Source: Bacteroides sp. (lineage in GTDB: Bacteria; Bacteroidota; Bacteroidia; Bacteroidales; Muribaculaceae). Taken from it: a stretch of 64,000 bases of DNA. The first letter of the stretch is position 1. Every line of letters begins with the position of its first letter. The position numbers were made by a program, and so were the translations under genes. Below are positions 7,821 to 20,460 of the stretch, piece after piece. The notes under the pieces were generated by a model. That model made no database searches. It saw only the letters and a list, made by a program, of their open reading frames with translations, and was not told the DNA's origin. The DNA lies in assembly GCA_014802015.1 (NCBI GenBank), contig JAAVDB010000011.1:16159-80158 (forward strand), written 5' to 3'.

Positions 7821-8002
7821 AATATTCAGGTTTTGCGTTAAATATTCTGCCACAAAGTTACAATCGTACCACCCCCTAAAGGGTGCGATAATGTCGCGAA
7901 GCAACGAAAAAATTTATATACAAAAAATCGCCATTTCGGGAACGGTATTGTTTCAGATATGGCGGATTCTTTTTAGAGAATGTAAGTTTGTAAAACTAGT
8001 CT

Positions 8003-8245
8003 TTATAAATTCAGGTATTTATAGCATACCCGCACAATTAAGGACAAAACCCATAACGATAACCCTATCAAAATGACTCCAATAATCCAGAGAATTCCTA
8101 CCATCACACCATAAGCAAAAACTCCTATACTTGCAAATAGTCCAATCACGATTAAAATCTCAGCAAAAAATTTTAATACTACTGCTGGAGTACAAGGATA
8201 ATCTCGGGTGATTTGAGAAGTAATACTTTCTTTGTCGTTGTTCAT
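8003..8245 (-). CDS. Small membrane protein with two hydrophobic segments (80 aa)
   Basis: MNNDKESITSQITRDYPCTPAVVLKFFAEILIVIGLFASIGVFAYGVMVGILWIIGVILIGLSLWVLSLIVRVCYKYLNL*; the track ORF extends upstream through a structured region. Confidence 0.5.
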   Translation of the reverse strand: MNNDKESITSQITRDYPCTPAVVLKFFAEILIVIGLFASIGVFAYGVMVGILWIIGVILIGLSLWVLSLIVRVCYKYLNL

Positions 8246-8299
8246 AATAGATTTTATTATTGATTGTGTTGCAATATTGCCACTATTACCACCCGACCA

Positions 8300-8495
8300 A
8301 TATAATAAATGGCAGGCTTTCGTGTCCTGTACGATCCAGAGGTACTGCCATACCCACACAACATACAGAAACACTAAGCCCACCAAGCAGCCATACCCAG
8401 ACAGGTACGGCAAAACAGTGGGCGTTTAGTGTTTTGTCCTCGTTGTGTTGAAAATTGGCAGTTTTCTGAATCGAGTACAATAACATTAAACGCTA
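8300..8495 (-). ncRNA. Candidate structured RNA / 5' leader (rod-like hairpin plus second stem domain)
   Basis: Nested complementary arms: 8356-8362/8442-8448, 8369-8377/8426-8434, 8378-8383/8418-8423, 8390-8397/8404-8411 (one pair is G.U only if the minus strand is RNA); second domain 8309-8315/8345-8351. Confidence 0.5.
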
Positions 8496-8661
8496 TGCGT
8501 CAAAAATAACATGATACCACTCCTGATATCTCGTACAAAAATAGTGTAATTATTTGATTTGAACAATATTTGATTATTATTCTTAGCGAGTATCAGATCC
8601 GGCAAATATAGATTTACAATTTTTATGTTGATTTATAAGACTTTATATCAGATTAAATTGT

Positions 8662-8669
8662 TATATTTG
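8662..8669 (+). promoter_or_regulatory. Putative -7 element upstream of the 8761-9800 operon
   Basis: TATATTTG matches TAnnTTTG. Confidence 0.4.
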
Positions 8670-8760
8670 CAAACGGTTAAAAATAACCATCATAAAATTA
8701 TCTGTTAATCAGTTCGATTGTGCATTATAACCATAGTTTCATCTTAAAGGCATAAAAAAT

Positions 8761-9063
8761 ATGGGAAAATCTTATACTGAAATTGTAGAATTAATTGATG
8801 CGCATTTAAAAAAAAGCGGAAGACGTTACTATTCCGAATTTTATATTGGAGTGTCTCAGAATGCCACTAAAAGATTATTCGAGGAACACCATGTTGATAT
8901 GAAAAATTCATGGTGGATATATGCTACTGCTGATTCATCTGAAATCGCAAAGGAAGTTGAGGAGCATTACTTAGGACTTGGTATGCGTGGAAATGACAGA
9001 GATGAAAATAACAATTCGACAATGGTATACAGCTATGTCGTAACCCCTACAACAACCGAATAG
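8761..9063 (+). CDS. Small GIY-YIG-like protein (100 aa), putative
   Basis: FYIGVSQNATKRLFEEH resembles the YIG...R...H part of GIY-YIG nucleases; downstream SSEIAKEVEEHYL supplies a possible Glu. AT-rich gene. Confidence 0.5.
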   Translation: MGKSYTEIVELIDAHLKKSGRRYYSEFYIGVSQNATKRLFEEHHVDMKNSWWIYATADSSEIAKEVEEHYLGLGMRGNDRDENNNSTMVYSYVVTPTTTE

Positions 9064-9065
9064 GT

Positions 9066-9800
9066 ATGGAGACATATAATCAGATACAAAAGCGATTTGT
9101 CGTTTTTTTAGATATAATGGGCTTTAAAGATAGGGTTGCAAGAAGTTCTCCAGAGAATTTATACTCAGAACTAACTGAATTTAATAAAGACATAACGAAT
9201 ATCATTAATTCTTCGAAAAAAATTGACACTCACGAACTGTCTCAGCTATCTGGCAAATCAGATATTGCATTAATCTCCGGACGTGAAAATGTTAACAACA
9301 TTATATTGGCACAATTTTCTGACAGTATTGTTTTGTTCAGCAATGACAATTCAAAAGAGAGTTTATTAGCAATATCTAACGTTGCCAGACAAATAATGAT
9401 TTCGGCAATTAATCGAGATAAACCAATCCCATTAAAAGGTGCTTTGGCTGAGGGAGAGATAACTTGCGATATGCCAAAACAACTATTTTTTGGCCAAGCT
9501 TTAATTGATGCATATCTTTTAGAGGAAAATGTACAGTATTATGGAATTGTAGTGCATCATACCGCTGAAAAATCAGTTATAAATTTGAATGAAAAAATAT
9601 TTAAGGACTCTTTGGTTCCGTTAAAAAGCGGTAAAATAAATCATTATGAGTTAGTTTGGTATAATGACTCCGCTTTTGATATTAAATCCGGCTTAGATAG
9701 AATAAGACTAAGCGTATCGGATTCTCCAAGGAAATATGTTGATAATACTAATAGTATAATTAGTAGCTATAACGATGCCCAGACTTCTCACACTATGTAA
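9066..9800 (+). CDS. Class III nucleotide-cyclase-like domain protein (244 aa), putative
   Basis: FVVFLDIMGFK (D16) and FSDSIVLF (D86) as candidate metal-binding Asp; PLKGALAEGEI...FFGQALIDAYLLEE resembles the cyclase G-x-G / N-A-x-R-L-E region. 2 bp after the preceding CDS. Confidence 0.55.
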   Translation: METYNQIQKRFVVFLDIMGFKDRVARSSPENLYSELTEFNKDITNIINSSKKIDTHELSQLSGKSDIALISGRENVNNIILAQFSDSIVLFSNDNSKESLLAISNVARQIMISAINRDKPIPLKGALAEGEITCDMPKQLFFGQALIDAYLLEENVQYYGIVVHHTAEKSVINLNEKIFKDSLVPLKSGKINHYELVWYNDSAFDIKSGLDRIRLSVSDSPRKYVDNTNSIISSYNDAQTSHTM

Positions 9801-9830
9801 GTAAGAGTCTAATCCATCCATCGAAAAGAA

Positions 9831-9864
9831 CGGAGTCCGCGTCAATATCAAGACGCGGACTCCG
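9831..9864. terminator. Bidirectional terminator hairpin between convergent genes
   Basis: CGGAGTCCGCGTC-AATATCAA-GACGCGGACTCCG, 13-bp perfect stem. Confidence 0.75.
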
Positions 9865-9895
9865 TCGTATATTCAGGATTTTCCTATTCTTCCGA

Positions 9896-19257: not shown

Positions 19258-20460
19258 TTATGATTTCAGGAACTCGCGTAGTGAAACCATTCTGATACCA
19301 TCCTGAGTGTTAGGAGCCGAATCACGCAGTGTGACCAGTATTTTTTCGTAATTATCCGGAATTGAGGACAGATTACCCAGCTCACGTTCAGCAGTTGTCG
19401 GCTGATCGATATTCACTGCCACTTGAACATAGACTGTCTCGCCATTCTTCTCGGCCACAAAATCCACTTCTCGCCCCTGAGACTTTACTCCGGTCATTAT
19501 CTTGTAGCCTTTGAACGCAAGGTGATTATATACGGCATTTTCAAGAATACCGCTGATATCCTTGGGCCTGTAACCTATGATACTGTTCCTGATACCAAGA
19601 TCCTCGAAATAATATTTCTCTCCGATCTCAAAATATCTTCTGCCTTCTATATCCCAACGTCTTGATTTATTAATAATGTAAGCCTCACAGATATGATCGA
19701 CGTACGACTGCACCGTCGATACCGTTCCTCCTACCCGTTGGGATTTTAAATAATCTGCAATACGCTTGGTCGTCACCAACTGCCCGGTATTGTCTGCCAG
19801 AAACATCAATAACCGGGACAGGAAATCAGTGTTACGCAGCGAGTGACGGTCAACAATATCGCGATACACAAGAGCATCGGTTATACCTGTCAGATATTCA
19901 TTCCAATACTCCTGTGAGGTAAGATTTCGGAGGTAAGGCATCCCTCCGAATCTTAGAAACAGGTCAAGCGATGAATCAGAATCTTCGAGCGAATGAAATA
20001 TCAGAAATTCTTCATAACTGAGAGGATGGACTCTTATCTCCACACTTCGTCCGGCCAACCGTGACGCTATTTCCGATGAAAGCATGGCCGAATTGCTTCC
20101 CGTGACATAAATATCGTTTTCGGGATTGAGGTTAAGCGATCGGATAACCTTATCAAATCCCTCCACCTCCTGTATCTCGTCAACAAAGATATAATTCTTA
20201 TGTGCCGATGATAATTTTGATGTTATCTCGTCATTCAGTTCCTGAGCCGTCGAGATATGAGAAAACGCAAAATCCTCAAGATTTATTCTGACAAAATTTG
20301 CTTCAGGATTAATTTGCCTGATCTCACTCTCCACTGCGTTGAGGATATAACTCTTTCCGACTCGGCGCTGTCCTGTCAGCACTTTAATCACGCCTTTATT
20401 TACAAAAGGCATGATCTTCTCAAGATAACAGGGGCGCGGTATATTGACAATAGTTTCCAT
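19258..20460 (-). CDS. AAA ATPase with DUF4143-type C-terminus
   Basis: GQRRVGKSYIL Walker A, YIFVDEIQEV Walker B, LSYEEF, GREVDFVAE nuclease-like motif. Confidence 0.85.
   Translation of the reverse strand: METIVNIPRPCYLEKIMPFVNKGVIKVLTGQRRVGKSYILNAVESEIRQINPEANFVRINLEDFAFSHISTAQELNDEITSKLSSAHKNYIFVDEIQEVEGFDKVIRSLNLNPENDIYVTGSNSAMLSSEIASRLAGRSVEIRVHPLSYEEFLIFHSLEDSDSSLDLFLRFGGMPYLRNLTSQEYWNEYLTGITDALVYRDIVDRHSLRNTDFLSRLLMFLADNTGQLVTTKRIADYLKSQRVGGTVSTVQSYVDHICEAYIINKSRRWDIEGRRYFEIGEKYYFEDLGIRNSIIGYRPKDISGILENAVYNHLAFKGYKIMTGVKSQGREVDFVAEKNGETVYVQVAVNIDQPTTAERELGNLSSIPDNYEKILVTLRDSAPNTQDGIRMVSLREFLKS

Follow-up and report, generated by a model that had tools for sequence, protein, structure and literature searches.

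Two open reading frames separated by only 2 bp make up the locus, and both are read in the same direction (Table 1). Their products are termed P1 and P2. The translations match exactly the protein sequences quoted in an earlier note, which was made from the sequence of the window, i.e. the whole 64,000-nucleotide stretch of Bacteroides DNA that was analysed. The genes are located in an island with a GC content of 33.5% (position ~7900 to 9830), compared with 53.2% for the whole window. The minimum of the 1040-bp GC content of the window falls inside this island. The layout described in the earlier note, a closely spaced gene pair on the + strand in an AT-rich patch, is thus borne out.

Table 1. 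Features of the P1-P2 locus; positions refer to the window.
Feature	Position	Strand	Basis
P1, 100-aa GIY-YIG-like protein	8761..9063	+	ORF list, homologue/profile comparison, AlphaFold model
P2, 244-aa protein with predicted class III cyclase fold	9066..9800	+	ORF list, fold search, alignment
Metal Asp residues of P2	D16 = 9111-9113; D86 = 9321-9323	+	alignment
Putative Bacteroides-type -7-like element TATATTTG	8662..8669	+	sequence only
14-bp perfect hairpin with T tail	9830..9865 (arms 9830-9843 / 9852-9865)	-	fold z = -6.5
Phosphoglycerate mutase gene, convergent with P2	9896-11410	-	
AT-rich island with P1-P2 and a small membrane-protein-like ORF	7905..9830		33.5% GC

An upstream element had been noticed as well. 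TATATTTG is indeed present, 91 bp 5' of the P1 start codon, and its role as a promoter is putative; a pattern scan for the Bacteroides -33/-7 promoter gave no match. The strong hairpin that follows the genes had been described as a terminator. The hairpin exists and its predicted fold is strong, but its T-run is on the - strand. Most simply, it is therefore the terminator of the phosphoglycerate mutase gene, and the idea of a dedicated terminator of the P1-P2 pair was rejected. Possibly, the hairpin also ends P2 transcripts.

The ORF at 8003-8413 (-) of the AT-rich island codes for a small, membrane-protein-like product. It is listed with a TTG start; an alternative ATG start is located at about 8284, giving 93 aa from the internal Met. 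At locus L004, a similarly hydrophobic 109-aa ORF is found after P2 (6007-6336, - strand).

Fold and active-site residues of P1 and P2

Tyr28, Arg38, His43, Glu67 and Tyr90 are conserved in P1. The first four occur in the order and with the canonical spacing of GIY-YIG domains, including the usual distance of 10 residues between Tyr and Arg. The window P1 has no match in Pfam. Its homologue at L004 matches PF01541 with 23.2 bits, above the gathering score of 22.6 bits, the P1-like protein of L030 reaches a score equal to the cut-off, and that of L029 has an E-value of 0.001. A profile of ten P1 relatives was compared with that of 25 ordinary GIY-YIG domains from the phylum. The two align with P = 4.5e-5, and Y28-G30, R38, H43 and E67 coincide with the nuclease motif. 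The GIY-YIG likeness proposed in the earlier note has thus held up, and P1 is a remote GIY-YIG homologue. It has the Tyr, Arg, His and Glu residues of the GIY-YIG nucleases (PF01541) and matches their profile over the core, but it comprises only 100 residues, and its activity is putative.

The AlphaFold model of P1 is good (84.1) and consists of a helix, strand 27-32, a helix, strand 52-57, a helix and strand 88-93. Helix 5-18 precedes strand 27-32, and the N-terminal GIY strand of the nucleases is missing. The C-terminal strand 88-93 (MVYxYVV) resembles a GIY strand and is the only other candidate. With this strand moved to the front of the sequence, the Pfam and hhalign scores rose in several tests, but not in all. 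The hhalign score increased from about 30 to 34.6; with some linkers none of 40 shuffled sequences reached 34.6, with others this was not the case. This is suggestive, and the C-terminal strand may replace the missing GIY strand. A Foldseek search of the PDB with the P1 model gave no significant match. Among the viral folds of BFVD, two of the top three matches were GIY-YIG proteins, all non-significant with E above 0.09. In the window P1, NDRDENN is present where most relatives carry a GGG loop. The last six residues, TPTTTE (9043-9060), are identical in all close homologues despite low model confidence at these positions.

P2 matches phrog_23933 over residues 7-184 (E 6.8e-12), and the Pfam family Guanylate_cyc at a sub-threshold E-value of 0.023. 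The AlphaFold model of P2 has low confidence (mean pLDDT 49.7, pTM 0.55), the N-terminal half being better. All seven matches at E<0.001 in a PDB fold search with this model are class III cyclases, and several of the cyclase matches have r.m.s. deviations of about 2.1-2.3 Å for about 130 residues. A non-cyclase enzyme, GTP cyclohydrolase III, is present among the lower-ranked matches. An alignment of 19 divergent P2 sequences shows seven invariant residues (D16, G19, F20, S85, D86, G125, G143), and 18 of the rows have Lys or Arg at position 124. P2 is thus predicted to have a class III cyclase fold, and the earlier description of P2 as cyclase-like with both metal-site Asp residues stands.

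Positions of P2 were assigned to canonical class III positions by our own motif alignment. By this assignment, the transition-state Asn/Arg pair is absent (position 147 is I, V, S or N, mostly I or V, and position 151 varies between L, K, E, Q, F and I), and the usual base-reading Lys is missing. Since Asn and Arg are not conserved while the metal Asp residues are invariant, the metal site is kept and standard cyclase chemistry is doubtful. No entry for the P2 family was found in Pfam, NCBIfam or PADLOC. Of 344 genomes from the order, 20 contain members of the wider family, in most cases as single genes coding for about 245-290 aa, and P2-like genes often occur without P1. A P2-like domain is also present in the second half of a 603-aa protein (L073:4497-6308), which has no Pfam match anywhere.

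Linkage, transfer and genomic surroundings

A scan of genome contigs with P2 revealed six loci (L004-L009) with 67-80% identity. Each of the six has a P1 homologue directly upstream of P2 in the same orientation (99-100 aa, 60-71% identity). L010 is apparently the same contig as L004, both being 41761 long, and was left out of the count. An eighth pair, L027, has a P2 frame broken by a frameshift. Including the window, P1 directly precedes the close relatives of P2 in eight of eight genomes, with a gap of 2 bp or an overlap of a few bases. The flanks of L005 and L009 are 91% alike and were treated as one site, so that about seven independent sites remain. In pairs with estimable dS, pairwise dN/dS is about 0.07-0.17 (P1) and 0.05-0.17 (P2); dS is saturated in many P2 pairs. 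The gene pair is under purifying selection. Together with the order and spacing conserved in eight genomes, this means that the arrangement is not due to chance. Adjacency of the two genes is conserved across Bacteroidales. The earlier note had named two adverse outcomes, no similarity to either fold and genes that never co-occur; neither was observed.

The similarity between the window and L005 is confined to 8755-9761, i.e. to both genes, and the flanks are unrelated. L006 and L007 are from MAGs labelled Paludibacteraceae and Bacteroidaceae, respectively. They have a 1809-bp block with 96.4% identity in common, in different surroundings, and the L007 cassette is near tyrosine recombinases. 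Of 297 genomes from the family, 5 have a P2 match, and the genus of the window is represented among these by the window's genome alone. Within the genus the site between the conserved neighbour genes is variable, and G117 carries a gene for 792 aa there. The pair is a small, horizontally moving cassette, the two genes of which are transferred together. Some copies may be decaying, since the window P1 has lost the GGG loop and P2 of L027 is frameshifted.

Besides P1-P2, the 1809-bp block includes a small divergent ORF upstream of the pair on the - strand (L006:296-709, 137 aa; L007:5138-5455, 105 aa before a stop). The 137-aa product from L006 has no match in Pfam or PADLOC. Searches of plasmid and phage sequences with P1 and its homologues gave no match. 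For P2, a search of plasmids gave one match, a Bacillus wiedmannii protein (L003:4419-5735) in which a P2-like domain is fused behind a DUF262-annotated part.

The close P1-P2 pairs are mostly surrounded by housekeeping genes and not by defence islands, which speaks against a role in defence. Relatives of P1 and P2, on the other hand, are found near defence genes. At L029 and L079 the P1-like gene adjoins the type I restriction gene HsdS, in islands with genes for a CBASS CD-NTase and HNH-SAVED (assigned by PADLOC matches for L029 and by sequence resemblance for L079). The P1-like gene is directly followed by one for a small membrane protein at L030 and L079; BLASTP detected no likeness between the two membrane proteins. 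The P1-like gene of L028 is preceded by a gene for a protein with a HEPN motif (RNWIGH), which overlaps its start. P2-like genes are located close to OloA/OloB (L058), near a DUF499 gene (L063) and, at L062, ahead of DruF and DruE homologues at a distance of 20 bp. In this last region (L062:624-4743), the P2-like gene is a possible unlisted component of a Druantia-type operon. A defence role of P1 and P2 is credible by guilt by association, i.e. from the surroundings of their relatives. No PADLOC model convincingly matches P1 or P2. Weak matches to CARF8 (PADLOC) and to DUF5669 and Promethin (Pfam) were judged to be noise.

Possible function of the gene pair

Pycsar, with which the earlier note had connected the pair, is also a two-gene unit containing a divergent class III cyclase-fold protein with both metal Asp residues. 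P2 additionally has a Phe (F14) two residues before D16, corresponding to F60 of AnPycC and F100 of EaPycC, which precede the first metal Asp by two residues (PMC11224242). P1 has no cyclic nucleotide-binding domain according to Pfam and PADLOC, unlike PycTIR and PycTM. The pyrimidine-reading residue sets of Pycsar are Y/D/R, F/K/F or F/R/Q (PMC11224242), whereas A82, F84 and V89 are found at the other such positions of P2, as judged by distance from the Asp, and there is no Lys or Arg near the second Asp. PycC has an N-terminal hallmark helix (PMC11224242), for which P2 leaves no room, as its first strand starts from residue 8 in the low-confidence model. The Asn/Arg pair and a PADLOC match to the pair are missing as well. 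Membership in Pycsar is thus not supported: the unit would work like Pycsar but is not Pycsar. With CBASS and Panoptes, it has in common the logic of a nucleotidyl-cyclising enzyme plus effector, and P1-like genes are present in CBASS-containing islands; however, P2 has no CD-NTase match. GIY-YIG proteins are present in the defence systems PD-T4-3 and PD-lambda-1 (PMC10952713). A pairing of GIY-YIG and class III cyclase-like proteins was not found in the literature searched, which consisted mostly of papers available without subscription.

The best explanation, a tentative one with less than an even chance, is that P1-P2 is a horizontally moving module, most likely directed against phages or mobile elements, in which P2 switches on the nuclease P1. 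P2, as a metal-dependent nucleotide-binding protein with a cyclase fold, would sense or convert a nucleotide upon invasion and would then switch on P1. As a very small GIY-YIG-type nuclease, P1 would in turn damage nucleic acid. The computations show the gene pair with its strict linkage, its mobility and its purifying selection, the cyclase fold of P2 with the conserved metal Asp residues, and the remote GIY-YIG homology of P1; from these we infer the nuclease activity of P1, the nucleotide chemistry of P2, the control of P1 by P2 and the role in defence. P2 as the switch and P1 as the effector are favoured, since the catalytic residues of P1 are retained beside almost all partners. A reading in which P1 is a minimal GIY-YIG nuclease with a circular permutation that several defence architectures use as a plug-in effector, and P2 a member of a large class III cyclase-fold family in which a nucleotide is made or consumed by a non-standard mechanism to control P1, is unlikely.

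The main rival is a reversal of the roles, since P1 is also seen beside other effector-like genes. The partner of P1 or of a P1-like protein is P2 in eight genomes, a membrane protein in L030 and L079 and the HEPN-motif protein in L028. P1 would then be a shared recognition or regulatory part with a swappable effector as partner, and P2 a metal-dependent enzyme that consumes a nucleotide instead of making a signal. The presence of GTP cyclohydrolase III among the fold matches is consistent with this, and the loss of Asn and Arg speaks against ordinary cyclase chemistry. However, Tyr, Arg, His and Glu, which are retained in P1-like proteins beside nearly all partners, are needless for a pure sensor, and the membrane proteins of L030 and L079 are not detectably alike. 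The reversal is thus rather unlikely. The small upstream gene, the 2-bp gap, the mobility and the sporadic distribution are also typical of toxin-antitoxin pairs, in which one protein would inactivate the other by direct binding and the genes would be kept for stability of the cassette, not for phage defence. Conserved catalytic residues in both P1 and P2 are unusual for an antitoxin, and P2-like genes are frequent without P1, which makes this improbable.

The ordinary chromosomal genes around most close pairs would agree with two genes for housekeeping or regulation that travel with mobile DNA as cargo unrelated to defence. The rarity of P2 in the family and the recent transfer with unrelated flanks are ill-suited to a housekeeping role, and the probability of this explanation is low. 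Least probable is an inhibitory signal: P2 would constantly make a nucleotide that silences P1, and removal of the signal by a phage would free the nuclease. Panoptes has a two-gene layout. P1-P2, as a two-gene unit with a small cyclase-fold enzyme, resembles this published system in its logic (PMC12657218, PMC12657230). The effector type of P1 is different, and the likeness of P2 and its partner to Panoptes is one of two-gene logic.

If P1-P2, under the favoured reading, is a defence unit, immunity based on cyclase folds extends beyond Pycsar and CBASS to a GIY-YIG type of partner. The invariant metal Asp residues of the P2 family without the standard transition-state residues pose a concrete chemical question. 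The presence of P2-like genes beside genes of the Druantia and Olokun types points to a shared accessory not listed in PADLOC.

The window contains a second patch of lower GC content with an ORF for a 400-aa ATPase-like protein (19258-20460, - strand). From reading of its sequence, this protein resembles DUF4143-type ATPases.
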